NCBI RefSeq assembly: GCF_001904745.1
Contig: NZ_MRCD01000022.1
Span: 41,874 to 99,005 of the forward strand
Length of the DNA stretch: 57,132 nucleotides
Direction: 5' to 3'
Source of the DNA: Calothrix sp. HK-06
Lineage (GTDB): Bacteria > Cyanobacteriota > Cyanobacteriia > Cyanobacteriales > Nostocaceae
Made by a program: the position numbers and the translations under genes. Shown here piece by piece: positions 4,474-48,488 of this stretch (position 1 is its first letter; the number at the start of each line of letters is the position of its first letter). The notes below the pieces were generated by a model. The model did no database searches, had not been told where the DNA came from, and was given only the letters and a program-made list of their open reading frames with translations.

Positions 4474-4496
4474 GGATAAATTCAATTTTAATTAAA

Positions 4497-31446: not shown

Positions 31447-32820
31447 CTAATCTCCACCGAGTTCAACCAACTTACCGATATTGAAATCAATCCTTACCCA
31501 TCCTCGATTTTTCTGCAAATTTTGGATTAACAGCAAGAAAATTTGCCAGTGAGGATTCATCAAAAACGGTAACGGGTCTTGCCAGGAAAAAATAGCATCT
31601 TTACCATGCGTGATAATTTTGAACCTATAGACAAAATCTGACCAAGAACGAGTAGTAATTAAGCGCCATACTTCATGATATGTCCAGTAAGTTGGTTTAC
31701 TCGTAGATTTTGGTTGAATAGGTTCCGCTAAATTACTTCCTGTACCTAGATATGCATCTGCTACACCTGGATGGTTATAAAACATTGTGATAGCGCTGTG
31801 AGTACGAGGATTACATTCGATAGCATATATATTCCCGTCTTCTGCTTCAATAAAGTCAAAAGAAACCTGTCCAGTAATACCTAACTCTTTAACAAAACGA
31901 CTTACCCATTCAAAAATCTTAGGGTTATCAACATTTTCATAGTTGACTTGAAACGCACTAGACTCACAGCAGCAATGCAATGTAATTACCCCATTACGAA
32001 CGGTACTGTGGGTGCAATATTCTTTACCTGGAATAAATTCTTGCATAATCCAGGGTTTTTCTGGACTAATGGGCAAACTTCTCACAAATGCTGCGGTCGC
32101 TTCGGGAGTATCGCAGGGGAGTTTAGTTAAATCTAACCTACGTACTGAGTCGTAAGGAATACTTTTAAGAATGTACTTACGCTTTTCTTGGGAGAAATCA
32201 AAGTTTATAACTTGTTCGGGTTCAGTAATTTTAAAAGACTTAGGAACTGATAGACCAAAACTTTGTGCAGTTTGTGCAAATGCGTACTTATCATCAAGCA
32301 TTTGCGTCATTTCTGCATCGCAATGTATGACTTCACATTGTGGCAGTGCTTTCTTCGCGAGAGAATCATAGTAACTCGCAACAGGACTACACACAGGTAC
32401 ATAAACATCGATATTTTCTTTTTCTACGATGTTTACTAATGACTGAATATAACCTTCTGGGTCTTTTTCAGGCGCCTCAACTGTGTAAAATTTATTTACA
32501 GCAAATGAAAAGCGGTGTCCAGTTAACCAATATTTATGCGCTTCTAATAAGATAACCCGATGCCCTTGTTCATGGAACGAGCGCGCAAGTTGTAATGCTT
32601 TGGTCATTTTACCACCGCTAATCAAAATATTTTTAGGTTCTTCAGTGGTAACATTTTGAGGACGCAAACTTTTTAAAAGTAGTGCTACCAAAACAAGCGA
32701 CGCATTTAATGGTAATGCAAGCAATAGAAGTGTCAGGGTGCCTAAAGTTTTTAGCGAAGAAGCACTAATACCAGGAGCATGTGTTTTTGCAGGTGAGGAA
32801 AGCGAAATTGACTGTGCCAT
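31447..32820 (-). CDS. mysC: Mycosporine-glycine synthase, ATP-grasp ligase MysC
   Basis: About 457 residues. An N-terminal hydrophobic segment (LTLLLLALPLNASLVLVALL) comes before the ATP-grasp ligase, with ILISGGKMTKALQLARSFHE, SVPKSFKITEPEQ, IMQEFIPGKEYCTH, VSFDFIEAEDG and ECNPRTHSAI. The C-terminus WVRIDFNIGKLVELGGD closely recalls Anabaena variabilis Ava_3856. MysC joins glycine to 4-deoxygadusol, giving mycosporine-glycine, using ATP. ATG 32820 (MAQSISLSS) is chosen over an in-frame TTG at 32832 that overlaps the mysB stop; it leaves an 8-base gap, so the two genes are coupled. Confidence 0.93.
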   Translation of the reverse strand: MAQSISLSSPAKTHAPGISASSLKTLGTLTLLLLALPLNASLVLVALLLKSLRPQNVTTEEPKNILISGGKMTKALQLARSFHEQGHRVILLEAHKYWLTGHRFSFAVNKFYTVEAPEKDPEGYIQSLVNIVEKENIDVYVPVCSPVASYYDSLAKKALPQCEVIHCDAEMTQMLDDKYAFAQTAQSFGLSVPKSFKITEPEQVINFDFSQEKRKYILKSIPYDSVRRLDLTKLPCDTPEATAAFVRSLPISPEKPWIMQEFIPGKEYCTHSTVRNGVITLHCCCESSAFQVNYENVDNPKIFEWVSRFVKELGITGQVSFDFIEAEDGNIYAIECNPRTHSAITMFYNHPGVADAYLGTGSNLAEPIQPKSTSKPTYWTYHEVWRLITTRSWSDFVYRFKIITHGKDAIFSWQDPLPFLMNPHWQIFLLLIQNLQKNRGWVRIDFNIGKLVELGGD

Positions 32821-32828
32821 GTATATAA

Positions 32829-33659
32829 TCAAATTCTTCTAATCAAAGTAACGCCATCACGCAAAGGTAATATTACTTGCTCTACACGGGAATCATTTGC
32901 GACCACTTGATTAAATTCAGTAATTGCTTTACCGTTAACACTACGTTGTTCGTTAGGTAGATATACTTGTCCTTGCATTAATGTGTTATCAACACATATC
33001 AAACCACCAGGCGCCAGTAAGCTGCTGTCTAATATGGTGTGGAAGTATTCAATATACTCTTTTTTATCAGCGTCGATAAAAATTAAATCAAACGACTCAC
33101 CGTTTTGAGCTAACTTACGTAGTATTTCAAGAGCAGGCGCCACTTCTACACTAATTTTATTACCATGAGGCGAATTTTGAAAGCAATCTTCAGCGAAGCT
33201 AGCAACATAAGAATCAACTTCACACGCTATAAGCTTACCATCATCGGGTAATGCTTCTGCCATTGCCAATGCCGAATAACCAGTAAACATCCCCACTTCA
33301 AGAACACGTTTGGCTTTAGTCAAATAAACAAACATCTTCAGCGTTTGTCCTTCAACATGTCCAGATAACATCTCTTGTTCGAGTTGACGAACAGTTTCAC
33401 CATCCGAAAACCGCTTAGACCAATCTTCAGTACTTGTCTTCTGTGCAAGTGCCGTCAAAGCTTCAGATTCATTTGTTGTATATTCACCAATATAAGGTTC
33501 TAAACCTGCCGCTAAATTATATATCTGCTGTAATGAAGTCAATACCTCTGAAGAAGTATTTGATGTTTGCGCGAGTTGTAATGTACTTTGCAGCAATTCC
33601 ACCAAAATACCATGAGGTGTAACAGCTCTGGGTTGATTAATTTGAGTAGCAGTAGTCAT
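32829..33659 (-). CDS. mysB: 4-Deoxygadusol-forming O-methyltransferase MysB
   Basis: A 276-residue class I SAM methyltransferase of the CCoAOMT-like O-MT3 fold: VLEVGMFTGYSALAMAEALP (SAM loop), FDLIFIDADKKEY (metal-binding Asp) and GLICVDNTLMQG. In cyanobacterial mys clusters MysB methylates the MysA product to give 4-deoxygadusol. ATG 33659 matches the family start; a longer in-frame form would run into a dispersed repeat and is unlikely. It lies 181 bp after mysA, a gap filled by a tandem repeat, and 8 bp before mysC. Confidence 0.93.
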   Translation of the reverse strand: MTTATQINQPRAVTPHGILVELLQSTLQLAQTSNTSSEVLTSLQQIYNLAAGLEPYIGEYTTNESEALTALAQKTSTEDWSKRFSDGETVRQLEQEMLSGHVEGQTLKMFVYLTKAKRVLEVGMFTGYSALAMAEALPDDGKLIACEVDSYVASFAEDCFQNSPHGNKISVEVAPALEILRKLAQNGESFDLIFIDADKKEYIEYFHTILDSSLLAPGGLICVDNTLMQGQVYLPNEQRSVNGKAITEFNQVVANDSRVEQVILPLRDGVTLIRRI

Positions 33660-33691
33660 GTAATTTTCAATTTGATATTTCAAATGTGGGA

Positions 33692-33820
33692 TACCGTAGG
33701 GGCGGGTTAACCAATATCCTAGAACCATGTTCACAATGCCGTAAACCCGTCCCATACAGATATCGTATACCCATATTCACAATGTCGTAAACCCGCCCCA
33801 TACAGATATCGTATAATACA
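33692..33820. repeat. Tandem repeat in the mysA-mysB spacer
   Basis: Two 40-base units at 33730-33769 and 33776-33815 (TTCACAATGCCGTAAACCCG then CATACAGATATCGTATA) differ at two positions and are spaced 46 bases apart. A left flank carries GTAGGGGCGGGTTAACC, also found at the end of the hydroquinone reductase gene. The repeats lie wholly in the transcribed spacer between mysA and mysB and could tune their relative expression. Confidence 0.75.
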
Positions 33821-33840
33821 GGGCGCCGAACCAATATTTA

Positions 33841-35070
33841 TTACACACCAACCATTTCTACTTCCTCTGTACCAATATACGCATCAACACCAGCACCAGA
33901 ACGTGGCAACTTTGCACAAATATCTCTATGTGCAGCAACAGCTTCGTCAAGCTCCTCACGAGTTAAATCATTGACAAAAAAGCAAGTTCCAATTGGTTTT
34001 GGCATTGCTGCACGTAATTTCCCATCACGAGTCTCAGTAATTGACTCAGTAGCGTGCCAAAGTAAATCACCTTCTAGTAGTGGATGGTCAAGTGACAGAC
34101 CAATGCGAGACATTAAATCGAGAATACGGTCACGTTCTTCCACAGAAATATATCCACGTCGAGATGCAATTGTTGCTGATAATGCCATATCAATATTTAC
34201 CGCATGACCATGATATAAAGGAACGCGCGGTGCCAATTCCAGTGTAGGACTCCAAGTATGACCATAGGCAATTACTCGGTCAAGGTCAATTTCATGCAAA
34301 TTAGGGGTTTCTAACTCCAGCATTGTTTTAATCGCTTCGTAATTCACCCGATGAGCGATTTCTTGCAAATGGTCTGAACCATTTACATAACCAAAGTGAG
34401 TTTGTAGTAAATCATGACCGTACTCATACAGCAGTTCAAAAACTTCAGAATTTGAGACTACCGCAATCTTAACTAGCTCTGCCATTCCATTACGAACTTG
34501 TGCAATAGGCAGAGTTTTTAAAAACGAAAAGTCAAGAATTACCTTCTGTGGTGCATGATAGGCGCCTAAACGGTTCTTCAACTTCTTGTGATTTACCGCA
34601 ACTTTAATTGCCACACCTGCATCAATTAAACCAATAAGCGTTGTCGGAATACGGATATAGTTAGTTTTGCGACGATATGCAGAACAAGCAAAACCAACAA
34701 CATCAGTAACTAGTCCACCACCAACCACCAAAACAGGTTCCTTACGAATCAAACCAAAATCAGCAAACGCATCTACAACCGATTCAAACGTCGCTAGCGT
34801 CTTTGCAGGTTCGGTAATAGTAACAGAATGTACCGTCAAATTAATGTCATAGTAACGGAAGTAAGCGCGAATTTGCTCTCCATACAAACGGTTAACGTTC
34901 GCATCAACCACTGCCAAACAGCGTCCAAACGGTTGGTAGCTGTCTGCAACTTCAGTATTTTTAATATCAAACGCACCGTTGACATACTCTAGACTGAAGT
35001 CTATTTTTTCATACCCAGTAACGTGAAACGCTTTTTCAGTCACTGTAAAAGATGCGTGAGGTATACCCAT
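33841..35070 (-). CDS. mysA: Desmethyl-4-deoxygadusol synthase MysA
   Basis: A 409-residue sugar-phosphate cyclase of the dehydroquinate-synthase superfamily: [34 protein letters not shown] (NAD site), [31 protein letters not shown] and [13 protein letters not shown] (zinc ligands). It resembles Anabaena variabilis Ava_3858 throughout. It cyclises sedoheptulose 7-phosphate to desmethyl-4-deoxygadusol, the first committed step of mycosporine-like amino acid synthesis. A ribosome binding site (AAGGACGAG) precedes the ATG. First gene of the mysA-mysB-mysC unit. Confidence 0.95.
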
Positions 35071-35199
35071 ATCTCTCGTCCTTGATTTAATAATTCACAA
35101 TTGAACAAAATTAAAAATACTTTGCTTTAACGTCAGTTACCCGACAACCATTAAAACTCAATAGAACAGACTGTGTACTAAAATTATCCCAAATCAAAC

Positions 35200-35265
35200 A
35201 GAAACCGAGTTTCTGCGCCAAATCGTCATTTTCATCACAGATTTCAACGAAGAAACCCGGTTTCT
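35200..35265. repeat. GAAACCGGGTTTC hairpin repeat, copy E
   Basis: The arms AGAAACCGAGTTTCTG and AAGAAACCCGGTTTCT enclose about 35 bases including CAAATCGTCATTTT. It is placed about 130 bp upstream of mysA, so this copy is not a gene terminator. Confidence 0.75.
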
Positions 35266-35710
35266 AATGCCCTAAATTTGGAAATTCGGTAGTAAAAATA
35301 TTAATGTTTTGCTTCTGTTCCTAATAATACTAAGTATGTTTACTGTGCAACCTCTAACGTAATCACTAGTAATATCTGTACTGTGGAAAATAGTTTATTT
35401 TTATCTCCTAATTTCCACTTGAGATTACAGCCCTGATTAATATTCAGTTCGCTGCCTTTAAGCATTCACTTTCGACCTCATTTAGCTAGAAACAGAGAAA
35501 ATTTGCAGCAAATACTTCCGCATTGACCGTACTTACATGAGTAATATCAACCAAATTGGATGTGAAGTTATTTTTCGCTACTAACCACAAAATTCAGATT
35601 AACTCTATTAGGTGACATATTTACCAATCTGAATATTAGTATTAATTATCAGAAGCGGTAAATTAATAATTATTAAATATATATCTAATATTGCAAAAGT
35701 ATGATATGGC

Positions 35711-35735
35711 GTAAGGTGGGCATTGCCCACCCTAC
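35711..35735. terminator. GTGGGCA/TGCCCAC hairpin after the pentapeptide gene
   Basis: A hairpin of GTAAGGTGGGCA and TGCCCACCCTAC lies 12 bp after the pentapeptide protein stop (minus strand). A related hairpin is at 9609-9634. Likely transcript end. Confidence 0.5.
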
Positions 35736-35746
35736 CGTCAACATAA

Positions 35747-36355
35747 TTATTCGCGTCTTTCTGTAGTTTCCTCGGTTACTTGCTCGGTTGAACAAACGCT
35801 ACCACGCGCGCCCCTTTCAATATTGAATTTTTCGCAATCACGTTTTTGAGGACGTTGTAATGACCAGCCATAAGACTTATCACCAGTAACTAGACCGTTA
35901 GACAACGTTGTTAAACGAAAGTTAGCGCCTCGCATGTTTACCATCATGCTAGTTGATCCTTTGAGGTTTGCACCCTCCAAGTTGGCGCCCATCATGCTAG
36001 TAAACCTCATATTGGCATTTTCTAAGGATGCTGACTTTAATAAGGCACCAGTGAAAGAAGTAGCAGTAAGATTTGTATTACTTAATATAGCGCCTTCTAG
36101 ATTTGCACCAGTTAAGTCGGCACCAGTTAAGTTTGAGCCGCTAAAATTGGCGCCTTTAAGGTTGGCATCGCGTAAAATCACCCTAGTTAGATTAGCGGAG
36201 CTTAAGTCGGCACCGCTTAAATCACAGCGAGAACAGACACCAGTAGCCTTAAACTGCTCTAAATCTTGTTGGTTGACTGCTTTGGCTTGTTGAGTTAATC
36301 CCAAACAAGCTAGTAGCGCTAAAGTAGCAAAAATTGTATGTTGTTTATGTAGCAT
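35747..36355 (-). CDS. Exported pentapeptide-repeat protein
   Basis: A 202-residue protein with an N-terminal signal peptide (ATLALLACLGLTQQAKA), a CSRCDLSGADL start to the repeat, about 17 tandem A(D/N)LXX-type pentapeptides (DLSSANL, DLTGANL, NLEGANL) forming a right-handed beta helix, and a C-terminal tail with two cysteines. The CxxC before the repeat is common in cyanobacterial members. The role is unknown; the location is probably periplasm or thylakoid lumen. Confidence 0.85.
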   Translation of the reverse strand: MLHKQHTIFATLALLACLGLTQQAKAVNQQDLEQFKATGVCSRCDLSGADLSSANLTRVILRDANLKGANFSGSNLTGADLTGANLEGAILSNTNLTATSFTGALLKSASLENANMRFTSMMGANLEGANLKGSTSMMVNMRGANFRLTTLSNGLVTGDKSYGWSLQRPQKRDCEKFNIERGARGSVCSTEQVTEETTERRE

Positions 36356-36755
36356 ATTTTTAGAATTTTACCAATCGTGCGTATAGCCATACTTAACATA
36401 TACGACTTTTTTCGCAAACAATAGGAATAAAGAAAAGGTAAAGAAATAGTAAAATAACTATAAACTATACACTTACATAGCTTGTGTTGGTACGATAAGT
36501 GTAATCTAACAAACAAAAACCTCAGTAACGCTTATACATATTACAGATGAGGCGCATGTAAACATGAAGAAATTGTAAAAACTCTGTAAAAATACTATAA
36601 ATTCGCGTGTTTGAACTACCGAATATTGCACGTAGAGATTAGAATAGACATAACTGCGAATTATACAGAAACTATATAGTCTAAGCTTTATGTAATCCCT
36701 CGGTCAGTTAATGACTGGGGGATAAATATTTTATGATATTCATATTATCTTTTTA
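36356..36755. other. Intergenic, hairpin at 36697-36721
   Basis: About 400 bp of AT-rich sequence. A hairpin (CCCTCGGTCA / TGACTGGGGG with wobble pairs, 36697-36721) lies about 35 bp downstream of the Ser/Thr kinase stop and may end its transcript. Otherwise nothing is recognisable; the promoter of the pentapeptide gene should be near 36400. Confidence 0.5.
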
Positions 36756-38561
36756 TTATTTCCAACCTAAAAGCTTTAACCAAGGAACTACTAAATAATG
36801 ACTTATAGCTAGGTAAAAGCTGTTGAAAATACCTAGTAAGCTAAAAAAGATAACTTTAGGCGCCAGTTGAGATGGTTCTGTAGAGAGTAGAAAGTTGAAT
36901 AAGCTAGGTGACAAAATACCAAGATTAATTAGTAAAGCAAAAGTTAAGGCTGTACCGAAAGCGCTAGTTAGTGCATGAACTATGTTATGGCTACGTAGTC
37001 CTAAACCAAGAGTTAGCAAAGAAACGGCAATTAATATCAACCCCATTAATCCTTCGACTGTAACTGAGTAAGGGATATTCGCACTAGGTACACTAACACC
37101 AGCTAATACTACCCATCCCAAACTGTAGCCAATAATACTTGTAATTAAAGCGATGAAGTAACGGCGCCTTTGTCCAAATGCACCGCTAATAGTTAGTGCC
37201 CATGAAGTTCCTAAACCAGCAACTGCGAATAATATTATTTCTGACCCTGAAATATTAGTTGTATTATTTAACACACCTGGCAGTTGGTTAGCAATATATA
37301 CAGAAAGTTGTTTTCCCCAGATGGTGTTATTTGCAAGTAGTAAACCAACGATTGTACCAATACAGGCGCCAATTGCAGCGAGGAGCATTGCCCAAGTAGT
37401 ACTAAGACAAGCAAGAATAGTATTAATAAACGTCTTGACTGTAAAAAGTACCGTTTGAGAAGTCGCTTGTGCGAATGCAGTAGTTATTTGTACGCTTGTA
37501 CCTTTTAAGCGCTGCCAGAAGTTAGATAACGGTGATGCGGTGTTATTAACTTGATGGGTAATTTGAGTAAATTTTTTCTGAACGTTTTGCCCAACCTGAG
37601 AAAATAATGATATAGCAGGCGCCGCTTGAGAAATACTAGCGAGTCTTTTTTGGATAACGGTAGCGGATGCCGGACGAGAGCGGACATCATATTTAACCAT
37701 TTCGTCAAGTAAATCGCCCAATTTGGGTTTAACGTCAACTAAATGGCGCCAGCGTAACTCTCCTGTAACAGGGTCTTCCAAATCTGCTGGGTTTTTCCCA
37801 GTAAGTAATTCTATCATGGTTCGACCAAGCGCATAAAAATCGGCTTGGGGCCCAACGTTAGCACCAGTTAATTGTTCTGGAGGACTATAACCCGAAGAAA
37901 ACAACCGCGTTGAACGACTGGGGAACCGCAGTAATGCCGAACTAACTTGCTTGACTCCACCAAAGTCAATTAAAACTAGCTGGTCTCCACGTACCGCCCC
38001 ACGGGAAAAGGCACCAGTACGCAGCATAATATTAGAGGGTTTGATATCACGATGAATAATTTTACGGGAATGCAAGTGATTTAAAATATCAATCGCTTGA
38101 AGTAGCCAGTTGAGTACTAATACTTGGGGACAACCTTGTGGGTAGTGCTTTTGAATTTCCTCCAGCGTCAACCCATGAATTTTTTCCATCACCAAACATG
38201 GCAGTTTGCGAGGTTTGGGATGTGAAAACTCAACCTGAAAATACCCGCAAATATCAACAATCGGAACTCCAGGGTGTTCGAGATTACATAATATTTCTGC
38301 TTCTTGTACAAACAGTTCGAGTGCTTTGGGTGAATCTTCGATTAAGACTTTTAACACCTTTTCGGTTTGCGCTATTGTATCCCAAACCGTATAAATTTGG
38401 GCAAATCCACCAGAGCCTAGAGTTTGCAATGGCACATAATGTTCAAGTAGCTGTAGATTGGCGCCACAGCTATTGCAAAACTTATTACCCCAAGGTTGCG
38501 GATAGGGACGCAAACAATCAGGATTTATGCAATGAATCGCACTCTTGTTTACCTGGGACAC
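36756..38561 (-). CDS. Ser/Thr protein kinase, 4-Cys type with membrane tail
   Basis: A 601-residue Hanks-type kinase. It starts with a zinc-ribbon-like 4-Cys motif (Cys11, Cys16, Cys29, Cys32), then the kinase domain (about 40-310) with LGSGGFAQIY, the HRDIKPSN catalytic loop (His170, Asp172), DFGG and an APE-like SPPEQL. After a linker come five or six hydrophobic helices (about 375-590). This N-terminal 4-Cys kinase group is typical of filamentous cyanobacteria. It is divergent from the O-methyltransferase gene. Signal and targets are unknown. Confidence 0.9.
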   Translation of the reverse strand: MSQVNKSAIHCINPDCLRPYPQPWGNKFCNSCGANLQLLEHYVPLQTLGSGGFAQIYTVWDTIAQTEKVLKVLIEDSPKALELFVQEAEILCNLEHPGVPIVDICGYFQVEFSHPKPRKLPCLVMEKIHGLTLEEIQKHYPQGCPQVLVLNWLLQAIDILNHLHSRKIIHRDIKPSNIMLRTGAFSRGAVRGDQLVLIDFGGVKQVSSALLRFPSRSTRLFSSGYSPPEQLTGANVGPQADFYALGRTMIELLTGKNPADLEDPVTGELRWRHLVDVKPKLGDLLDEMVKYDVRSRPASATVIQKRLASISQAAPAISLFSQVGQNVQKKFTQITHQVNNTASPLSNFWQRLKGTSVQITTAFAQATSQTVLFTVKTFINTILACLSTTWAMLLAAIGACIGTIVGLLLANNTIWGKQLSVYIANQLPGVLNNTTNISGSEIILFAVAGLGTSWALTISGAFGQRRRYFIALITSIIGYSLGWVVLAGVSVPSANIPYSVTVEGLMGLILIAVSLLTLGLGLRSHNIVHALTSAFGTALTFALLINLGILSPSLFNFLLSTEPSQLAPKVIFFSLLGIFNSFYLAISHYLVVPWLKLLGWK

Positions 38562-38719
38562 AACTGTTTAAGAGACACTAGCTTAGTTGATTGTACTAAA
38601 CACAGGGTAACGCGAACTGTGTCTCATTAACTATTGTTAAGCTTTTACAGGTATTGACGAGAAGCCAAAAATAAATAGAAAGTAAATTAATGTAAAATTT
38701 TGACACGGAGAAATAGGAA

Positions 38720-39760
38720 TTGTTAGGAACGAATTCGGCATCAAATAGACTTGCTAAGATGATTTATGGCTATTGGCAAAGCCAGTGTCTTTACATAGCG
38801 ACCAATTTAGGTGTACCTAACCTGTTGCAGTCAGGGGCAATGACTGTGGAAGCGATAGCAGAAAAAACTTCGACAAAAGTAGAAACTTTGTATGTTCTTC
38901 TTCGTGCTTTAGCCCATTTGGGTGTGTTTGCAGAAAAACCTGGACGTGTATTTGCAGCAACAGAACTCTCAGAACTTCTGATTACAAATGCAGAGCCAAG
39001 TTTAGGACATTTTTTGTTGCATATCACAGAACCACCGATGTGGGATGCTTGGAGAGAATTAGGTGGTTCATTGAAAACAGGGGAAGTCGCTTTTGAAAGG
39101 GCACATGGCAAAAATTTCTATGAGTTTTTCATGTCGGAAAACCCCGATAGTAAAAATTTGTTCAACAATGCCATGAGCTATTTGACGAATCAAGCAATTG
39201 ATTCACTGTTTGAGGTCTACGACTTCGGGCAATTTGATACAGTTATGGACGTTGGAGGCAATCGAGGTTCACTAATTGCCCATATTGTCAAGAAATTCGG
39301 ATGTAAAGGTATATTGTTCGACCTTCCACATGAAGTTGAGATAGCTCCTGCTTTCCTTGCAAGTCAGGGAATTGGTAAAGATGCTGTACAAGTTGTTGGC
39401 GGAAATGCTTTGGAGGAGTTACCAAAAGGTGCTTCCGCAATTATAATGAAGTATTTCTTGTCTGTATTTAACGTTGAAAACGCACGTCAAGTAATCGCTC
39501 GGTGTAGAGATGCTCTTCCTCCACAAGGTAAAGTCGTACTTCTACAAACACTTGTTCCACCTCGTGGGGCACCAGTGGAATACCCAGATGGAACTATTCC
39601 AGGTCTTGCTGCAGTTCAGATGATGGTGACAAATCCAGGGGGTTATTGGCGGACGGAAGAAGAGTACAAGGAGTTGTTTAGTACCAGTGGCTTTCAAATA
39701 GAACAAGTGATTCACACAGGAACTAGCCTGACAGTGATGGAATTTAGTAAAAAGTCTTGA
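38720..39760 (+). CDS. SAM-dependent O-methyltransferase (methyltransferase family 2)
   Basis: A 346-residue enzyme of the acetylserotonin/hydroxyneurosporene-type O-methyltransferases: N-terminal dimerisation winged helix (LAKMIYGYWQSQCLYIATNL, VEAIAEKTSTKVETLYVLLR), the SAM loop VMDVGGNRGSL, IMKYFLSVFNVENARQV and GKVVLLQTLVP. A TTG start (38720) is preceded by GGAG at 38706-38709; the next Met (38759) would cut the dimerisation helix. A perfect terminator hairpin follows. It opens the accessory gene block ahead of the NRPS, so I infer small-molecule tailoring there. The acceptor is unknown. Confidence 0.82.
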   Translation: MLGTNSASNRLAKMIYGYWQSQCLYIATNLGVPNLLQSGAMTVEAIAEKTSTKVETLYVLLRALAHLGVFAEKPGRVFAATELSELLITNAEPSLGHFLLHITEPPMWDAWRELGGSLKTGEVAFERAHGKNFYEFFMSENPDSKNLFNNAMSYLTNQAIDSLFEVYDFGQFDTVMDVGGNRGSLIAHIVKKFGCKGILFDLPHEVEIAPAFLASQGIGKDAVQVVGGNALEELPKGASAIIMKYFLSVFNVENARQVIARCRDALPPQGKVVLLQTLVPPRGAPVEYPDGTIPGLAAVQMMVTNPGGYWRTEEEYKELFSTSGFQIEQVIHTGTSLTVMEFSKKS

Positions 39761-39766
39761 GCATCC

Positions 39767-39802
39767 AAGAAACCGGGTTTCTTTCCGAAACCCGGTTTCT
39801 TT
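39767..39802 (+). terminator. Perfect 15-bp hairpin after the O-methyltransferase
   Basis: AAGAAACCGGGTTTC and its exact complement GAAACCCGGTTTCTT form a stem with a 5-base loop, followed by T residues: a good intrinsic terminator. It is the most compact member of the GAAACCGGGTTTC repeat family (copy F). Confidence 0.75.
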
Positions 39803-40018: not shown

Positions 40019-40990
40019 ATGCTCAAGGTTAAATCGAAACTCCCTGGCGAACAACTATTCGCATCACCAACGACTGTAGCACTTGCTTCTTTGTTACTTA
40101 GCCTAGTGGCTCTATCTTTCTCACCAATTCTGATCCGTTTGAGCGAAGGTGAACTAGGTCCTAACGCTACAATATTTAATCGCTTTTGGATATCTACTGT
40201 CGCTTTTGTGCTGTGGAATCAATTTACAGCAGCACGGGGGCAACTGTCGGGTAATCAACCGAAATTACCGCAACGTTACACAATCCGGCAAATCTTGCTC
40301 TTGATAGGAGTTGGAGTTGTGATGTTTGCGACTCTTGCTCTTTGGGCTTGGTCTTTAGCTCATACCAGCGTCGCGAACTCTACCCTTATGCACAATTTGG
40401 CGCCACTGTTCACGGTTTGTGGGGGGTGGTTGATTTGGGGAAAGCGCTTTGATAGTAAATTCCTTAGCGGTATGTTCGTAGCAATAATAGGAGCTTGCCT
40501 CTTGGCATACCATGATTTTACCGAAGCTGCTAGTGACAAACTCCAAGGAGACTTGGCGGCAATACTATCAGCCGTTTTTCTTGGCTTATATCCACTTTTA
40601 GTAGAGCAACTCCGAACTCAATTGAGTCCGATAGTTATTATGACTTGGTGTTCTGCAATTGGCACAATTTTGCTTTTCCCTATCGTCATACTTACTGAAG
40701 GTCAGATTTTCCCCCATTCGTTGCATGAGTGGATTTACGTAATATCACTAGCATTGATATGCCAAATACTAGGTCTGGGACTTTACGCATATTCACTCAA
40801 TTGGTTAACTTCAGGATTTGTTTCCTTATGCGATTTGTTTGTTCCCGTTCTTAGCACCCAAGAAGCTTGGGTGATTTTTTCGGAAAGTCCTAGCTGGGTT
40901 ACTTTGGTCAGTTTTAGTATAATTCTAGTAGGGGTATGTATAACTTCAACTAGCCAATCTGCTATTAAAACAGAAGCAGAATCAGCCTAG
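40019..40990 (+). CDS. EamA-family (DMT) transporter
   Basis: A 323-residue membrane protein with about ten helices in two EamA repeats (about 20-155 and 180-315): FSPILIRLSEGELGPNATIF, LAHTSVANSTLMHNLAPLF and the second-half ILVGVCITSTSQ. Drug/metabolite transporters of this type export amino acids, their derivatives and other small metabolites. It sits between the O-methyltransferase and the dioxygenase, pointing to export of the block's product (inference). It is only weakly similar to the second EamA protein at 52597-53574. Confidence 0.85.
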   Translation: MLKVKSKLPGEQLFASPTTVALASLLLSLVALSFSPILIRLSEGELGPNATIFNRFWISTVAFVLWNQFTAARGQLSGNQPKLPQRYTIRQILLLIGVGVVMFATLALWAWSLAHTSVANSTLMHNLAPLFTVCGGWLIWGKRFDSKFLSGMFVAIIGACLLAYHDFTEAASDKLQGDLAAILSAVFLGLYPLLVEQLRTQLSPIVIMTWCSAIGTILLFPIVILTEGQIFPHSLHEWIYVISLALICQILGLGLYAYSLNWLTSGFVSLCDLFVPVLSTQEAWVIFSESPSWVTLVSFSIILVGVCITSTSQSAIKTEAESA

Positions 40991-41065
40991 TGGAAGTATG
41001 GAAATTGGAACGATTAAAGTTATTATTTTATTAACTGGTGCATTTTTTAGCTTTACAGTATAAAC

Positions 41066-42244
41066 ATGCAAAATCTTCCAATTTCTATCTCAAAAGACAT
41101 AAAATTCAGATTTTTACGAGATGAAGAAAAAACATACAGCACTAATGAGAAAGAGCTACCTTTGGTAATTGAGCCAGTGCAAGAAACATCCTTTGCACAT
41201 CTGTTGCGATTACTGGGTGAAAATGGCACCGAGTTTAATGAACTGCTAGATAAATACGGCGCCGTTTTGTTTCGAGGCTTTGAAATTGAAGATGGTAATG
41301 AATTTCAAAAAGTTTTAGAGCTATTAAATATCCAATTAGAGTCAGTTTATCACTTTGGCAGCGCTCACCGTGTACGAATAACCGATAAGGTGTTCACTTC
41401 TTCAGAAGCTCCACCGGATACCATTATTGCTCCTCATAATGAACTGAATATGGTACCTTGGCGCCCTAATATACTTGCTTTCTTTTGTCAAGTACAGCCA
41501 GACGTATATGGTGAAACTCCGATAATAAATACAGAAAAACTATTTAATGACTTATCTCCGAGTTTACAGCACAAAATTGCCAATTATCCTCAGCGATTTG
41601 TACGGTATGTTCCTAAGCACCTATTAGGGCTAGTATTTGAAGGACTATCGAGAGAGGAGATTAGCAAACTTCTAACTGAACAAGAATTTGATTTTAACTG
41701 GGAAGAAGATGGCTCTTTGAATTTTGAGTGTTCTTATATTACCTTATTTAGTCACCCAAGAACATCCCGACTCTGCTTTTGCCTTAGCATTGTTGATTGT
41801 TTAGTAAGTAGAGAATGGTATAAAAACATCGGTCAACGGTATTCGTTAGGCAAAAACCTCTATTACAATTGGCTACCAGCTTCGTTGTACAAAGAATATC
41901 AGCAAAGATTAACAACAGCAGCAACTGTTGTTGATGGTTCGCAAAAACGAACTAGCACCCTGAATGCATATTTTGTCAACAGGAACAATGAATCTACAAC
42001 AATAACCGAAGCAGAAGCAAAGGAATTGGGAAAAGCTGAATGGAAAAATTCAGCTATTTTTCAGTGGAAGAAAGGGGATATTCTACTTATCGATAACTTA
42101 CAAGTTGCTCATAGTAGACTGAATACTGCACAAAAGCGAAAAATACTAACTGCTTTTGGAAACATGTGTAACATTCGCGATATGAAACCACCTACTCTTG
42201 CTCCAACTTCAGCAAAGGAATTAGAAGCCAGCAGAAAATTGTAA
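41066..42244 (+). CDS. TauD/TfdA-family (SyrP-like) Fe(II)/2-oxoglutarate dioxygenase
   Basis: A 392-residue non-heme iron dioxygenase: GAVLFRGFEI near residue 65, the metal ligands His124 and Glu126 in APHNELNMVPWRPN, FFCQVQPDVYGETPI, and distal His349 in DNLQVAHSRLNTAQKRK, whose basic residues should bind 2-oxoglutarate. The HxE form and FFC...GETP segment are as in SyrP, which hydroxylates an NRPS-bound aspartate. Its position 0.1-1.3 kb before the BT1 gene and NRPS suggests tailoring of the NRPS or mycosporine product. Its end overlaps the convergent transporter by 53 bp. Confidence 0.86.
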   Translation: MQNLPISISKDIKFRFLRDEEKTYSTNEKELPLVIEPVQETSFAHLLRLLGENGTEFNELLDKYGAVLFRGFEIEDGNEFQKVLELLNIQLESVYHFGSAHRVRITDKVFTSSEAPPDTIIAPHNELNMVPWRPNILAFFCQVQPDVYGETPIINTEKLFNDLSPSLQHKIANYPQRFVRYVPKHLLGLVFEGLSREEISKLLTEQEFDFNWEEDGSLNFECSYITLFSHPRTSRLCFCLSIVDCLVSREWYKNIGQRYSLGKNLYYNWLPASLYKEYQQRLTTAATVVDGSQKRTSTLNAYFVNRNNESTTITEAEAKELGKAEWKNSAIFQWKKGDILLIDNLQVAHSRLNTAQKRKILTAFGNMCNIRDMKPPTLAPTSAKELEASRKL

Positions 42245-43415
42245 ATACGGCACTAATAATGACAAGAACGTAAACTGGAGTTCCCCAACCATATAAGTAA
42301 CCTCCTAAAATAGGACCTGGTTGTCTAACTAGTTGATATACTGACATTAGTAACGCATAGGTGGTGCCTTCTACACCAACAGGACAAGACCTTGCTGCAA
42401 TTTCTAACACACCCAGCATGGCTATCATCGAAAAAAATCCAAAAAATACACTAACCAACATAGCGCTTTGTGCATTAGTTATGAATAATAAACCAATTGT
42501 AGAGGCGGCTGTAAACCCAATTGCTAAATTTAACAACATTTTTCGGGAAATTCTAGAGGCAAAAACACCAAACATCAGGGCACCTATACCATTAGACAAA
42601 GCTTCAAATGTACCCAAAATACCTACAAATTGAGAGTCAAAATTCAAAGCATCTTTGTAGTAATAGACAAGATAATTTACTAGCGGTGGCACAAGAGTAA
42701 ACTGAAGGCAAGCAATAAAAGCTATAACAGCGAGAAAGCGTTGTGATTTTACTGCTAGCCAAAAAGCTTTTAAATTACTTTTAACAGGGACAGTGTTTCG
42801 CTGCTTTTTTTCGTCTGCAAGTAATATAAAAGTTGCAACTAAACCAATCAATGGTACAATTGCAGTAAATATAAACGCCAGCGATAAATTAGAATTTTGA
42901 GCAAACCAGCCGCCGACAAAATACAGCAAAGCTTGACCAAAACTTAAAGAAGTCCATTGAATTGCCTGCAAGCGAGCAGTATTGTTCAAAATCTGCCCTT
43001 GAACGACCATGATTTTATCTGTCAGTACGTCGCTAAAGGCGATGAAAAAATTAACTAAAATTAGACTAATCGCCAGCACCCAATATGTGTTAACTTGAAA
43101 TATACCTAAACCTAATAACACAGCAAGCGTTAGCGCATAGCAAATAAAAAAGTAGCTTTTGAACTGGTAACCAAATAATGAAACAGCATCTCCAATCATT
43201 CCGTAAATTGGTCTAACTAACCAGGGAGAGAAAATGAGGCTGCTAAAGGTTGCTAACTGTGCTGGTGAAAGTCCAAGGTTATCTTTGAGATAAATGGTCA
43301 GCGGAAGACCAAAAAGTCCTGGATTACATCCGTAAGTTTGAATTAAGTAAAACAGAACCATGATGCCAATAAGTTGCTGTATTGCCATCGAATCTTGCCT
43401 AGTTGTGTTGGACAT
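42192..43415 (-). CDS. BT1-family (folate-biopterin type) MFS transporter
   Basis: A 407-residue protein with about 12 membrane helices. The N-terminal QTYGCNPGLFGLPLTIYLKD and SPWLVRPIYGMIGDAVSLFG segments are BT1 hallmarks. BT1 transporters move folates, pterins and related compounds; cyanobacterial members include a folate transporter. Its 53-bp overlap with the dioxygenase and divergence from the NRPS (97 bp) make it part of the same compact block. The real cargo is unknown and a pterin-like or mycosporine substrate is only a suggestion. Confidence 0.8.
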   Translation of the reverse strand: MSNTTRQDSMAIQQLIGIMVLFYLIQTYGCNPGLFGLPLTIYLKDNLGLSPAQLATFSSLIFSPWLVRPIYGMIGDAVSLFGYQFKSYFFICYALTLAVLLGLGIFQVNTYWVLAISLILVNFFIAFSDVLTDKIMVVQGQILNNTARLQAIQWTSLSFGQALLYFVGGWFAQNSNLSLAFIFTAIVPLIGLVATFILLADEKKQRNTVPVKSNLKAFWLAVKSQRFLAVIAFIACLQFTLVPPLVNYLVYYYKDALNFDSQFVGILGTFEALSNGIGALMFGVFASRISRKMLLNLAIGFTAASTIGLLFITNAQSAMLVSVFFGFFSMIAMLGVLEIAARSCPVGVEGTTYALLMSVYQLVRQPGPILGGYLYGWGTPVYVLVIISAVFTIFCWLLIPLLKLEQE

Positions 43416-43512
43416 TAGTCACCTGATTTGATAGTTACCTGATTTAATTAAGCCATTAAACTTTATAATAGATTAAATTCTTAGCAGCGTCACGCTGAAA
43501 GCATCAGTTTCT

Positions 43513-46500
43513 ATGTCTTCTATGTCAAAACTTCAAGCATATTGGGAAAAACATCTATCCGGAGAATTACCTGTACTCGAATTTCCTACTAATTTACCTC
43601 GTTCAACTAAAAAATATAATTGCGCTTCTTATAAGTTTGTAATCAATAATAAACTAACTGCGTTACTTAAACAACTGGCAAATAATGAAAGTTTCAGCAT
43701 TGATAACGCTTTATTAGCAGCATTTAAAGTTTTGCTTTACCGTTACACAAGTGAGAAAGAAATTATTGTTGCTTTGTTACTCAATAAGCTTGACGCTAAC
43801 ATAGTTGTTTCAAAAGATTTGATTTCGGCAACTACTTCGTTTAAAACCTTTTTGAGCCAAGTTAGTTATACTGTTTCGGAAATAAGTGAGTATCAAGATT
43901 ATCCCTTTGCTTCATTGATAAAGCAATTACAGTCAAAGTTCAATTCAAGCAATTTACCTATTTGTCAAGCATTATTTACTTACCACTTCGAGCAAGAGTA
44001 CCAGAAATCACCCCAGGAGAATATAGAATTCGATTTATGCTTGGAAGTCATAGAGACTTATGATTCACTACTGTGCAACTTGAAATACAACAGTAATTTG
44101 TTAGATAAAGTAACAGTTGCTCAGTTCAGCGGACATTTCCAAAATTTACTGGAAAGTATTGTATCAAATCCAGAACAAGCAGTAGCTCAGTTACCATTGT
44201 TGAGTCAGAGGGAACGAGACGAAATACTGATTGAGTGGAACGCAACTGAAAAAGTTTATGATTTTACAACTCTTCATCAATTAATAGAGACACAGGTCGA
44301 GCGAACACCAGATGCAGTAGCGGTTTCATTTGCTTCTAAAGAGTTTACTTATCGTGAATTAAACTGCTGTGCAAATCAACTAGCACACTATTTACAAACA
44401 CTAGAAGTTAAACCAGGGGTATTGGTTGGTATTTGCGTTGAGCGTTCTTTAGAAATGCTAGTAGGACTTTTAGCTATCCTCAAAGCAGGCGCCGCTTACT
44501 TACCTTTAGACCCAGGTTATCCACAAGAACGTTTAGAATTAATATTATCTGATTCTCAAGCGCCAGTATTACTGACTGATAATCCAAAGTTTTTTTGTGA
44601 TGATAAACAAAGAAAAATAATTTGTTTACAAACAGACCAAGAACATATTGCCACCCATAGCCAAGAAAATTTGGCACCATGTGCGACCGCCGGAAATCTA
44701 GCATATGTTATTTACACCTCTGGTTCAACAGGTAAACCGAAAGGAGTAGAAATTCCTCATCGCAGTGTGGTAAATTTTTTAAAATCGATGCAGCATGAAC
44801 CTGGAATTACAGCATCAGATGTACTATTAGCAGTTACTACAATATCATTTGACATTGCCGCCCTTGAGTTATATTTACCCTTAATTACTGGTGCTAAGGT
44901 AGTATTAGCTAGCCGAGAAATAGCTAGTGATGGTAGGCGCCTGTTAGAACTAATAAATAGTAATGGTGCAACGATAATGCAAGCCACACCAGCAAGTTGG
45001 CGGATGTTGCTCGCAACTGGATGGAATGGTTCTGAGGGATTAAAAATTCTTTGTGGTGGTGAAGGTTTAACAAGTGAGTTGGCGCAGCATTTGTTAGACA
45101 AAGGTGAATCAGTATGGAATTTATATGGGCCAACTGAAACTACTATTTGGTCAACTGTTTGCAAAGTAGAAGCCGATAAGTTATCTCACGCTTTAGTGCC
45201 TATCGGTCGTCCCATTGCCAACACACAAATTTACATATTAGATGAGCATCTCCAACCAGTACCAATAGGAGTTAGCGGCGAATTATATATAGGTGGTGCT
45301 GGAATTGCACGTGGTTATCTTAACCGTCCTGATTTAACTAGCGAAAGGTTTATTGCTAACCCTTTATTACCAGGTTCGCATTTTTATAAAACTGGAGACT
45401 TAGCTCGTTATCTACATGATGGCACTATTGAATACATTAATAGAATAGATAACCAAGTAAAAATTCGGGGTTTTCGGATTGAACTAGGAGAAATAGAAAA
45501 CGCTCTATCTGCTCATCCAGAAGTGCGAGAAGCAGTCGTCATCACCCGTTCTGAAGAATCAACCGAAAAACAAATAGTAGCTTATATTACTACAAATTGC
45601 GAACCAACTCCAGGCAAGTTACGTGATTTTTTGAGACAAAAGCTACCAGATTACATGGTACCCGTAGCTTTTGTGAGATTAGAGGCATTACCCTTAACAC
45701 CGAGTGGAAAAGTAAACCGTCGTGCTTTGCCAAAGCCAACAGCTTCAAGCTTTTGCCAACATGATGAATTTATCGCACCGCGCAATAATACTGAACAGAG
45801 ACTGGCAAAAGTGTGGTCAGAGATTTTAAACATTCAAACAATAGGTATTAAAGATAACTTTTTTGATATAGGTGGAAGTTCTCTTTCAGCAATATTTTTG
45901 ATAGCAGCGATTGGGCAGCAGTTTGGCAAAGAATTACCGATTTCAGCAGTCCTCACCAATCCGACCATTGAAGAATTTGCTGTTCTTCTTAATACCACAG
46001 ATACTTTTGATAAATCCTCCTTAATTCCCATCCAGCCAAAAGGTAATAAGGCGCCATTTTTCTGCGTACATCCCGCAGGTGGTCATGTTATGAGCTACTT
46101 AAAATTAGCGCACTATCTAAGTAATGAGCAGCCATTTTATGGCTTACAAGCACAAGGATTTAATGGAGAAGAACCTTTAACGCGCGTTGAGGATATGGCT
46201 AGCGTGTATATTGAAGCAATTCAGAAATTTCAACCAAATGGGCCATACTATATCGGTGGGTGGTCATTTGGGGGAGTTGTAGCGTATGAAATGGCGCAGC
46301 AATTACACAAAATGGGACATAAAGTCTCTTTGTTAGCAATAATAGACTCCTATGTTCCAATTCTCTTAGATAAAAACAAGAAAATTGACGCTCCTTATTT
46401 AGTTGGCGCCCTTTCCAGATATTTTGGGGGAATGCTAGGTCAAGATAATTTAGTAAACAGTAATGAAATGAAGGACTTGGATGCTGAGGAACAAATAGAC

Positions 46501-46824
46501 TACATCCTTGACAAAGCAGTAGAAGCCAAAATATTACCACCATCGAATCAAAGCCAACAAAACCGACGTATCGTCGATGTATTAGTTGGCACCCTAAAAG
46601 CAACTTATTCCTACGTTAAACAGCCATACCCAGGAAAAGTCACAGTATTTAGAGCTAAAGAAAAGCATATTATGGCACCTGACCCAACTCTCGTATGGGT
46701 AGAATTATTCTCTATCATGGACGCAGAAGATATAACAATCATTAATGTTCCTGGTAATCATTACACATGCGTCTTAGAACCCCATGTACAAGTATTAGCA
46801 GAACATTTGGTTTGCAACGGATGA
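43513..46824 (+). CDS. One-module NRPS (half C - A - PCP - TE), predicted glycine-activating
   Basis: A 1103-residue synthetase. Residues about 1-245 match only the C-terminal half of a condensation domain (YWEKHLSGELPVLEFPT onward), with no HHxxxDG. The adenylation domain (about 255-750) has YTSGSTGKPKG, NLYGPTETT and KTGDLARY. Its specificity pocket reads DILQLGLIWK (Asp447 to Lys733), a known glycine code. The carrier domain has IGGSSL with Ser790; the thioesterase (about 850-1100) has GWSFGG with Ser918. It resembles the NRPS in Anabaena variabilis that turns mycosporine-glycine into shinorine, but that one uses serine. The stop lies inside an inverted repeat. Confidence 0.9.
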   Translation: MSSMSKLQAYWEKHLSGELPVLEFPTNLPRSTKKYNCASYKFVINNKLTALLKQLANNESFSIDNALLAAFKVLLYRYTSEKEIIVALLLNKLDANIVVSKDLISATTSFKTFLSQVSYTVSEISEYQDYPFASLIKQLQSKFNSSNLPICQALFTYHFEQEYQKSPQENIEFDLCLEVIETYDSLLCNLKYNSNLLDKVTVAQFSGHFQNLLESIVSNPEQAVAQLPLLSQRERDEILIEWNATEKVYDFTTLHQLIETQVERTPDAVAVSFASKEFTYRELNCCANQLAHYLQTLEVKPGVLVGICVERSLEMLVGLLAILKAGAAYLPLDPGYPQERLELILSDSQAPVLLTDNPKFFCDDKQRKIICLQTDQEHIATHSQENLAPCATAGNLAYVIYTSGSTGKPKGVEIPHRSVVNFLKSMQHEPGITASDVLLAVTTISFDIAALELYLPLITGAKVVLASREIASDGRRLLELINSNGATIMQATPASWRMLLATGWNGSEGLKILCGGEGLTSELAQHLLDKGESVWNLYGPTETTIWSTVCKVEADKLSHALVPIGRPIANTQIYILDEHLQPVPIGVSGELYIGGAGIARGYLNRPDLTSERFIANPLLPGSHFYKTGDLARYLHDGTIEYINRIDNQVKIRGFRIELGEIENALSAHPEVREAVVITRSEESTEKQIVAYITTNCEPTPGKLRDFLRQKLPDYMVPVAFVRLEALPLTPSGKVNRRALPKPTASSFCQHDEFIAPRNNTEQRLAKVWSEILNIQTIGIKDNFFDIGGSSLSAIFLIAAIGQQFGKELPISAVLTNPTIEEFAVLLNTTDTFDKSSLIPIQPKGNKAPFFCVHPAGGHVMSYLKLAHYLSNEQPFYGLQAQGFNGEEPLTRVEDMASVYIEAIQKFQPNGPYYIGGWSFGGVVAYEMAQQLHKMGHKVSLLAIIDSYVPILLDKNKKIDAPYLVGALSRYFGGMLGQDNLVNSNEMKDLDAEEQIDYILDKAVEAKILPPSNQSQQNRRIVDVLVGTLKATYSYVKQPYPGKVTVFRAKEKHIMAPDPTLVWVELFSIMDAEDITIINVPGNHYTCVLEPHVQVLAEHLVCNG

Positions 46825-46888
46825 TTAACGGATGTAACGGATAATTTAGTAGTTTATCCGTTACATCCGTTGTATCCGTTGCCAATTT
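46813..46888. repeat. Long inverted repeat of ACGGAT/ATCCGT units, NRPS 3' end
   Basis: TTGCAACGGATGATTAACGG runs into GATGTAACGGAT and is mirrored by ATCCGTTACATCCGTTGTAT then CCGTTGCCAA. The left arm encodes the last NRPS residues (CNG) and its stop; the right arm reaches the stop of the convergent ATP-grasp gene. Probably a bidirectional terminator. Related copies lie at 9756-9785 and 56680-56710. Confidence 0.75.
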
Positions 46889-48488
46889 AACCTTCTTCCC
46901 AATTAATTGGCAAAGTATATTCTGAAATACTAGAAAAATCACGATTTTTATTGCTAGTTTCTGCATCCAAAACTTTCGCAACCTTATTGTAAATATCTTC
47001 AGCCTCTTGCAGCGAGTCGCCGATACTTGTTAACCCTAATTTCCCAAACTGTGACAAACAGCCCATTAAATGGAATACTGTTCCCGTCTCGGTTCCAGAG
47101 TCAAAGTGCAAACGGTGATGAGCAATGATATCCATCAAATCATTCGGTAATAATCCTTTATAGCGGTCTTTTTGCAGGTTATCGGTAGCAATATAGTATT
47201 TAGGGCGCCCTTGTTGGCTGTAAAATAAACCTGTTGAAAGATTATAACGACCGTTCGTTAGTAATTTTAACGTCATGAATGGGTGAGTTGTACCACCTTT
47301 TCGCAAGTTGATTTCAATTGCTTGAATATCCCACTCGCCATTTTCTTTTTGGACGGTAATAAAGTCAACGCCATAACGCTCTAAGGCGCCTTTTTCTGCT
47401 AAATTCTGACCAACTTTTAAACCCAACTGCTGTAAGCGCAACCTGTATGCTTCATCTGCTGGAAACTCACAACCTAAGTATATTTGCCCATCGGGGCCAC
47501 CTAGTATTTGGTCGTGAGTAGATAAAATTTCGACATCCCCACTGGGAGTAATTCGTCCTTGAACACTAGGAGAACGTTTAATTTCTCCTTCTACAAAAGC
47601 TTCGACAATGGCGCCAAGTTCTGCAATACGTCCAGAAAAATTATCCCAACTTTCTTGACTTGCTTGGAAGCGCAGTAGCGGGAAATTTTCTTTAATTGCT
47701 GTAACACGAGATAAATGTGTCTCGTTTGGTGGCGCCATATGAGATATTGGTCGTAAGTCCAACAAAGCATTACCTTCACCAGAAATACCTTCGTTGAGTT
47801 TAACAACCATACGTTGTAATGTTGGTTGACGCTCCCACAACTGTGTCGCAACTTCCGCTAACTCATCTACAGTTTTAACCAAAGGACTTCCATCGGGATG
47901 AGGCACATTTGACTCTGCGAAAATTTGTCTACTGCCGCTTTTCGTTCCCCATATTTGTAGGTCAGGAGCAGGAGCATATAAAGGAACACCTAACTTTATT
48001 GATAATTCAGCCTCTAAATCGGTGGCATTATAGCACGTTATAAATGACTTCTTCAAACGCAAAGCTTGACGAATCCGCTCAAGCAAACGGGGACGTTCTA
48101 AAATTTTTTGACTAAGGGGTTTTTGCGATGAGTCGTAAGTAGATAATAGTAACAGACGGTTACGTGCATGAGAAAATGGAATTCCTGGCAATAACTGCAA
48201 ATAATAATCAACAACACTCGGATGCAATGGCATTGAAGTCACGTAAACTAAGCGTGTCCGAGGATTTCTTAACCGAATTAAAGAGAATAATAGTCGTTCT
48301 TCATAATGTTCACAACCTTCAATCTTCATGAGTTCGCGTTGGTCGATACTCAGCGAGGGAATGACAAGAATATCAGCATCGCTGTTGTCGAATAACTCAA
48401 TGGTTTTCCAACGGTCGCGTAAAGTCGTTTGCAAGTCGCGGAAAGTATCAACCTGCTCTATTACATGCGAGCTATCAAAGGTTTGCAT
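46887..48488 (-). CDS. ATP-grasp peptide-ligase-like protein (PGM1-related)
   Basis: A 533-residue protein. The first 170 or so residues form a pre-ATP-grasp domain (IDQRELMKIEGCEHYEERLL); the ATP-grasp core follows with WGTKSGSRQIF, MVVKLNEGISGEGNALLDLR (ATP-binding lysine and Gly-rich loop), ILSTHDQILGGPDG and QAIEINLRKGGTTHP (metal ligands). PGM1-type ligases form a peptide bond between an unusual amino acid and a peptide. Related proteins occur without NRPS genes in many cyanobacteria, so its role here is open, but its position facing the NRPS fits an amino-acid coupling step. Confidence 0.78.
   Translation of the reverse strand: MQTFDSSHVIEQVDTFRDLQTTLRDRWKTIELFDNSDADILVIPSLSIDQRELMKIEGCEHYEERLLFSLIRLRNPRTRLVYVTSMPLHPSVVDYYLQLLPGIPFSHARNRLLLLSTYDSSQKPLSQKILERPRLLERIRQALRLKKSFITCYNATDLEAELSIKLGVPLYAPAPDLQIWGTKSGSRQIFAESNVPHPDGSPLVKTVDELAEVATQLWERQPTLQRMVVKLNEGISGEGNALLDLRPISHMAPPNETHLSRVTAIKENFPLLRFQASQESWDNFSGRIAELGAIVEAFVEGEIKRSPSVQGRITPSGDVEILSTHDQILGGPDGQIYLGCEFPADEAYRLRLQQLGLKVGQNLAEKGALERYGVDFITVQKENGEWDIQAIEINLRKGGTTHPFMTLKLLTNGRYNLSTGLFYSQQGRPKYYIATDNLQKDRYKGLLPNDLMDIIAHHRLHFDSGTETGTVFHLMGCLSQFGKLGLTSIGDSLQEAEDIYNKVAKVLDAETSNKNRDFSSISEYTLPINWEEG

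Follow-up and report, generated by a model that had tools for sequence, protein, structure and literature searches.

Gene content of the locus

The window analysed here is a stretch of 57,132 nucleotides from the cyanobacterium Calothrix sp. HK-06 (contig NZ_MRCD01000022.1, positions 41,874 to 99,005), in which positions 31,447 to 48,488 hold the genes mysA, mysB and mysC for the biosynthesis of mycosporine-like amino acids (MAAs) and, next to them, an accessory block that resembles the published mysF-mysI-mysE module. Gene calls were based on the list of open reading frames (ORFs) together with Pfam and NCBIfam scans of the window proteins (Table 1). The original prediction had placed mysABC on the minus strand and, about 3.6 kb beyond, an O-methyltransferase, an EamA exporter, a TauD-like dioxygenase, a BT1-type carrier, a one-module nonribosomal peptide synthetase (NRPS) and a PGM1-like ATP-grasp ligase. 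The three mys genes were confirmed as ORFs of the expected families, and all six accessory genes proved to be of the families and in the places described.

The gap measures 3.65 kb from the mysA start (35070) to the methyltransferase start (38720) and is occupied by a pentapeptide-repeat protein and a Ser/Thr kinase, both on the minus strand; the direct left neighbour of the block is the kinase and no MAA gene. Since the BT1 and ATP-grasp genes lie on the minus strand, the accessory block is not one operon. A scan for promoters and terminators gave values within about one standard deviation of shuffled sequences and was not used. The mysA gene is 96–98% identical to its counterparts in four congeners that share this locus. 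The true start of mysB is probably the internal ATG near residue 33; alignments with most MysB homologues from other genera begin only at residue 31–43.

Table 1 Genes of the MAA locus, with positions in the window, strand and basis of assignment
Gene and product	Position	Strand	Basis
mysC, ATP-grasp ligase, glycine addition expected	31447-32832	-	PF02655, NF005315
mysB, O-methyltransferase	32829-33755	-	PF01596
mysA, sugar-phosphate cyclase (2-epi-5-epi-valiolone/dehydroquinate (DHQ) synthase-like)	33841-35070	-	PF01761/PF24621
Pentapeptide-repeat protein	35747-36355	-	Pfam scan
Ser/Thr kinase	36756-38561	-	Pfam
mysF, S-adenosylmethionine (SAM) methyltransferase (Methyltransf_2 + dimerisation)	38720-39760	+	Pfam
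EamA/DMT carrier, candidate MAA exporter	40019-40990	+	PF00892
mysI, TauD/TfdA Fe(II)/2-oxoglutarate dioxygenase	41066-42244	+	PF02668
BT1-family major facilitator superfamily (MFS) carrier, second candidate MAA transporter	42192-43415	-	PF03092
mysE, one-module glycine-type NRPS	43513-46824	+	Pfam, A-domain code
PGM1/BesA-like ATP-grasp ligase, neighbour outside the module	46887-48488	-	PF18105

Correspondence to the mysF-mysI-mysE module

The ten specificity positions of the MysE adenylation (A) domain, in a numbering that we take from GrsA, were placed by alignment to the second module of LgrA, presumably glycine-specific. They read DILQLGLIWK, which we assume to be a glycine code, and not the serine code of canonical shinorine-type MysE; MysE is thus predicted to be glycine-specific. 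The carrier motif GGSS and the thioesterase Ser/Asp/His residues are present. The window shares these ten residues with all 32 other glycine-type sequences, which represent 18 distinct genomes, several of them read twice. Six sequences of other clades differ. Four, three of which lie beside mysC, carry DVWH(I/F)SLIDK, taken here as serine-like, with DVWHISLIDK found in the mysC-linked NRPS of G001, G010 and G008; the other two, both loci of one Trichodesmium metagenome-assembled genome (MAG), carry DVQFVAQVVK, which we regard as proline-like. A Streptomyces NRPS (34%) reads DLPKVAEVGK, and the thioesterase Ser/Asp/His are kept in all sequences except this one. In the MAA cluster of a Trichodesmium erythraeum MAG (L087:14472-18467), a full condensation-A-carrier-thioesterase NRPS with DVQFVAQVVK follows two MysD-like ligases.

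The methyltransferase, TauD protein and NRPS are 86, 78 and 75% identical, respectively, to the products of three adjacent genes on plasmid NZ_CP117772.1 of Nostoc sp. UHCC 0926, which is also where the best plasmid match of the TauD protein (78%) lies; the plasmid record has no annotated genes at this place. The methyltransferase counterpart has the same two Pfam domains, and the NRPS counterpart an architecture identical to that of the window, namely the C-terminal half of a condensation domain followed by A, carrier and thioesterase domains. In MysI, the residues H124, E126 and H349 of the HxD/E...H motif are invariant in 11 of 11 aligned sequences. Arsin et al. (2023) described mysF, mysI and mysE on the largest plasmid of UHCC 0926 and proposed that MysE adds a second glycine, that MysI brings about an oxidative loss to palythine and that MysF performs an N-methylation, toward aplysiapalythine E (PMC10510106); judged by these matches, the plasmid trio would be the published genes. 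Calothrix sp. PCC 7716, listed in the same paper among the organisms with glycine-type MysE (PMC10510106), has a locus syntenic with the window. MysF and MysI orthologues, a glycine-coded MysE and mysABC, the constituents of the mysFIE module, thus stand together in one genome.

The two arrangements share an orthologous methyltransferase, TauD dioxygenase and glycine-type NRPS in the same order. They differ in that mysFIE of UHCC 0926 is plasmid-borne, with mysABC and mysDC2C3 elsewhere (PMC10510106) and, in our comparison, neither EamA nor BT1 adjacent, whereas the block in the window lies 3.65 kb from mysABC and has two carriers, with no second MysC and no MysD found. Another related arrangement is the Brasilonema cluster of Dextro et al. 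(2023), in which mysABC is accompanied by a methyltransferase, a transporter, a dioxygenase and an NRPS, with palythine-type profiles in both strains (PMC9918943). Its gene content is that of the window except for BT1, and it is collinear with mysABC, whereas the block in the window is separated. Two Brasilonema stretches in our set (L109 and L114, from strains other than those of PMC9918943) read mysA-B-C-methyltransferase-EamA-TauD-NRPS. Since a TauD-type gene holds that place in both, the dioxygenase named mysH in PMC9918943 is probably MysI.

With the canonical mysABCD and mysABCE clusters for shinorine and porphyra-334 the window has the mysABC core in common, but it differs by the lack of mysD, a glycine- instead of a serine-coded MysE, and the additional methyltransferase, dioxygenase and carriers. 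The MysH route of Nostoc linckia NIES-25, as cited in PMC10510106, likewise leads to palythine-type MAAs by oxidative side-chain loss; however, MysH is a phytanoyl-CoA dioxygenase, while the window MysI is of the TauD/TfdA type, and the Pfam scan matched only PF02668 in it and no PhyH family. The mysFIE chemistry and the gene combination are already published, and the window holds a known module.

Distribution and linkage to mysABC

MysI was found (E ≤ 1e-30) in 18 of 145 genomes of the family Nostocaceae and, at E ≤ 1e-60, in 10 of 388 genomes of the order, six of them new. All 18 MysI-positive family genomes carry mysA, versus 90 of the 127 others (Fisher p 0.003, shared ancestry ignored), and MysF (at least 70%) occurs in 17 of the 18 versus 1 of 127. 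The original prediction had viewed the block as extending the MAA pathway through methylation, oxidation by the dioxygenase, ligation of a second amino acid and transport, and had stated that wide occurrence of the block without mysABC would refute this. The presence of mysA in every MysI-positive genome of the 145 supports the extension and is the opposite of such an occurrence.

In the MysI neighbourhoods of 23 genomes other than the window, viewed in stretches of up to 20 kb, mysA, mysB or mysC was present in 18. An EamA homologue (47–98%) was found in 18 of these stretches, MysF in 17, an NRPS in 17 (16 of glycine type) and BT1 in six; in G290 a MysF homologue lies just past the MysI stretch (L123). 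In Brasilonema, Tolypothrix, Plectonema and others the block genes directly follow mysC, and MysI is also part of mysABC clusters that contain MysD or a MysD-like ligase (Scytonema, Roseofilum, Okeania, Trichodesmium). An alignment scan for MysI across 84,980 species genomes, its reach limited by two seed patterns, returned 22 loci, 21 cyanobacterial and one of 25% in Streptomyces.

Absence of mysD and of a second mysC

The genome of the window amounts to 9.99 Mb in 243 contigs and is 99.98% complete. A scan for mysD with PF07478 gave eight hits, which were not assigned one by one, the family being too general; the MysD of a Scytonema cluster was used as query in its place. With this query no match was obtained in the whole genome, window included (E ≤ 1e-20), extending the absence noted originally for the window. 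MysC gave a single match. There is a small chance that a MysD or a further MysC was missed through contig breaks. Likewise, no MysD was found (E ≤ 1e-20) in five of the six congeners searched, including Calothrix PCC 7716 and Dulcicalothrix desertica PCC 7102; Calothrix sp. PCC 7103 has one.

Variable occurrence of the block and the status of the ATP-grasp gene

The comparison of synteny suggested originally was performed within the genus, on Calothrix sp. PCC 7716 (G002), Calothrix NIES-4105 (G003), Dulcicalothrix desertica PCC 7102 (G004), Calothrix sp. PCC 7103 (G005), the MAG Calothrix sp. FI2-JRJ7 (G006) and G001. The gene order from mysC to the ATP-grasp gene is identical in four of these six genomes (G002, G004, G005 and G006), and the arrangement is consequently not due to chance. 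G003 and G001 read mysCBA-pentapeptide-kinase-ATPgrasp-SDR, with no block at that place, the gap between kinase and ATP-grasp gene being about 0.2 kb in G003. G003 has its block about 0.6 Mb away from mysABC, whereas in G001 MysI is missing and mysC adjoins a serine-type NRPS. Upstream of the kinase, the window and G003 are alike for about 80 bp, to approximately 38,643, and then diverge, as judged by eye. Read from these gene orders, the block, with mysF-eamA-mysI-bt1-mysE in about 8.2 kb (~38,645 to ~46,880), has been gained by insertion, lost or relocated as a unit within the genus, and the pentapeptide-repeat protein and the kinase are genus-level neighbours with or without it (L067, L068). 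In Nostoc sp. PA-18-2419 (L112 near 12826), BT1 and NRPS of the block are separated by a stretch with 55% similarity to mysA, which may be left over from a cluster in which mysABC and the block were still contiguous.

The ATP-grasp gene, counted originally as a member of the block, does not belong to it. It occurs in 140 of the 145 family genomes, versus 108 with mysA, so that at least 32 genomes have it but no mysA match (E ≤ 1e-60); its best matches outside the window are 73–97% identical, and its match to NF042917 is far below the cut-off. No tie to the block or to mysABC was seen across the 145 genomes. In G001 and G003 it stands beside the kinase with no block between, and in G090, G120 and G138 (with a Brasilonema-type cluster), G118 and G027 it is on another contig than mysA or megabases away. 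On this ubiquity and synteny it was rejected as a pathway enzyme and, by its distribution, is assigned to the surrounding backbone. That it nevertheless adds a further amino acid, giving an MAA larger than palythine, is hardly credible on these counts, even though the gene ends 62 bp from the mysE stop and its family includes amino-acid and peptide ligases (BesA, PGM1).

Candidate transporters

EamA orthologues of at least 71% identity occur in 14 of the 145 family genomes, all MysI-positive (14/18 versus 0/127); four of the 18 have none. The next match (51%) is the gene beside MysI in G164. EamA homologues of 47–50% lie in the MysI clusters of Roseofilum (one of two genomes), Okeania and Trichodesmium, and one of 47% in a mysABC-MysD-like cluster without MysI (L127); no EamA stands beside MysI in G017, G089, G118, G200 and G456. 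BT1 (at least 69%) was found in 15 of the 145, each of which has a MysF homologue (E ≤ 1e-90); this amounts to 15 of the 21 genomes with MysF-like enzymes versus 0 of 124 others. It lies in the block in seven of the 15, beside a 53–57% MysF-like gene in three (one next to mysABC) and displaced in five, and is thus not always adjacent to MAA genes. In G099 (L135), the displaced BT1 has several neighbours similar to those that surround the MysF-like/BT1 pair of L129 and L130. The Fisher values for the transporter and MysF associations ignore phylogeny.

EamA and BT1 are accordingly named as candidate MAA transporters, a role suggested by their distribution among genomes. That both are dedicated to MAAs is a tentative reading to which we give somewhat less than even odds: EamA accompanies MysI in three families, including loci with MysD-type ligases, and BT1 accompanies MysF-like methyltransferases also where neither MysI nor glycine-type MysE is present. 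If so, N-methylated or palythine-type MAAs would be exported, perhaps to the sheath. Among the open-licence papers listed, none showed a link of MAAs to EamA or to a BT1/biopterin transporter beyond the unnamed transporter of the Brasilonema cluster.

Variant clusters were also seen around these carriers. In G095 (L131:6454-14512), mysABC, a short TauD protein (235 aa), a 53% MysF-like methyltransferase, a 73% BT1 and a GH43/68/32-like protein stand in a row, and MysF-like, BT1 and GH-like genes recur in G124 and G139 without mysABC in the stretch (L129, L130), L130 also having the short TauD. Speculatively, glycosylated MAAs might arise through sugar transfer by the GH-like enzyme. A sodium:solute symporter (PF00474) lies between mysC and EamA in the Trichodesmium and Okeania MAA clusters (L087:6750-8186), with similar symporter N-termini in L088 and twice in L089.

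Proposed pathway and alternatives

In combination, the orthology to mysF, mysI and mysE, the glycine code, the co-occurrence of mysA, EamA, MysF and BT1, the lack of a MysD match and the single MysC lead us to read the interval as a single MAA pathway divided between two neighbouring gene sets, mysABC and mysF-eamA-mysI-bt1-mysE, following a palythine-type route (probability about 0.83). MysA and MysB would form 4-deoxygadusol and MysC, with glycine, mycosporine-glycine, steps established for these families (PMC10510106). MysE would then transfer a second glycine via its carrier to the remaining ring carbonyl, giving mycosporine-2-glycine, the substrate being predicted from the code and the transfer from MysE precedent. 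MysI would hydroxylate the alpha-carbon of this glycine, with loss of the side chain and formation of palythine, as proposed but not proved in PMC10510106; we infer that glyoxylate would be released. MysF would N-methylate palythine to an aplysiapalythine C/D-type product, C11H18N2O5, and EamA, and in this genus BT1, would carry the product across the membrane, as their genome distribution suggests. The products of this organism would consequently be palythine and N-methyl-palythine of the aplysiapalythine C or D type; for aplysiapalythine D, C11H18N2O5, the [M+H]+ is 259.1244 (PMC7821102). Because mysD is unmatched and mysC single in the genome, this should be the main MAA route of the strain. 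The original suggestion that an MAA beyond shinorine, porphyra-334 or palythine was possible is not clearly borne out with respect to palythine, as both the predicted and the published class is palythine or N-methyl-palythine (PMC10510106, PMC9918943). From a cultured Calothrix sp., PMC4626690 reports no known MAAs; higher-mass signals were present that might be glycosylated MAAs.

Several observations weigh against this reading. The route is predicted from the genes, and the activities of MysF and MysI are proposals in PMC10510106. The Discussion of PMC9918943 speaks of no detectable MAAs from both Brasilonema strains under fluorescent light, and the available text of that paper reports no N-methyl product for them. 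Five of the 23 other MysI stretches (G003, G073, G118, G164, G456) have no mysABC nearby; in the first four mysA lies elsewhere in the genome. As for the carriers, EamA paralogues (34–51%) occur in many MysI-negative genomes, 47 of 145 matching at E ≤ 1e-50, and four of the five displaced BT1 genes were examined and have no other MAA gene of the query set adjacent. UHCC 0926 has neither carrier beside mysFIE, and the carriers are therefore not essential; its BT1 (82%) lies elsewhere, and its EamA matches do not exceed 46%.

The 3.65-kb gap with its two unrelated genes, the distance of about 0.6 Mb in NIES-4105 and the plasmid location in UHCC 0926 would also fit two independent pathways that happen to be neighbours, mysABC yielding mycosporine-glycine alone and the methyltransferase-EamA-TauD-BT1-NRPS genes an unrelated small peptide or amino-acid product. 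The mysA co-occurrence and the contiguous clusters, in which block genes directly follow mysC, largely refute such independence, as do the palythine-type profiles of Brasilonema (PMC9918943) and the presence of MysI in mysABC clusters with MysD-type ligases; it was rejected as very improbable. A less remote alternative, though still an unlikely one, concerns the substrate of MysI. Amino acids bound to a carrier can be substrates of TauD enzymes that adjoin NRPS modules, and MysI and glycine-type MysE stand together in 17 of 24 stretches, window included, so MysI may hydroxylate glycine tethered to the MysE carrier, in the manner of SyrP, and not free mycosporine-2-glycine. Conversely, G017 (Scytonema), G164, G178, G200 and G405 have stretches in which MysI adjoins a MysD or MysD-like ligase and MysE is missing; this favours a free small molecule as the substrate.

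Other genes in the window and genome

A second mysA-like gene (~71% identical) lies on contig C100 of the genome (L069:8707-9972) with no mysB or mysC beside it, adjoining two nitrogenase-type oxidoreductase genes and DUF269, ThiF and UbiA genes (Pfam). ORFs like those around it also occur in L093 and L094, and a second mysA-like match was obtained in six of seven sampled genomes of the genus, partial in one. Positions 374-5837 and 6753-7805 of the window hold three cytochrome P450 genes and a nearby mandelate racemase/muconate-lactonizing-type enzyme, unrelated to the MAA locus as far as seen.

Implications

As no MysD was found in HK-06, Calothrix PCC 7716 and D. desertica PCC 7102, and no second MysC in HK-06, these organisms offer a cleaner test of the MysE-MysI-MysF route than does UHCC 0926, where tricore MAAs are made as well. 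The mysFIE genes, discontiguous in the published account, directly follow mysABC in several genomes. The analysis removes the ATP-grasp gene from the cluster and names two carriers as candidates for MAA export; this transporter link is the less expected result and the part worth following. MAAs being natural UV sunscreens, the locus combines the core sunscreen genes of Calothrix sp. HK-06 with a known add-on set.

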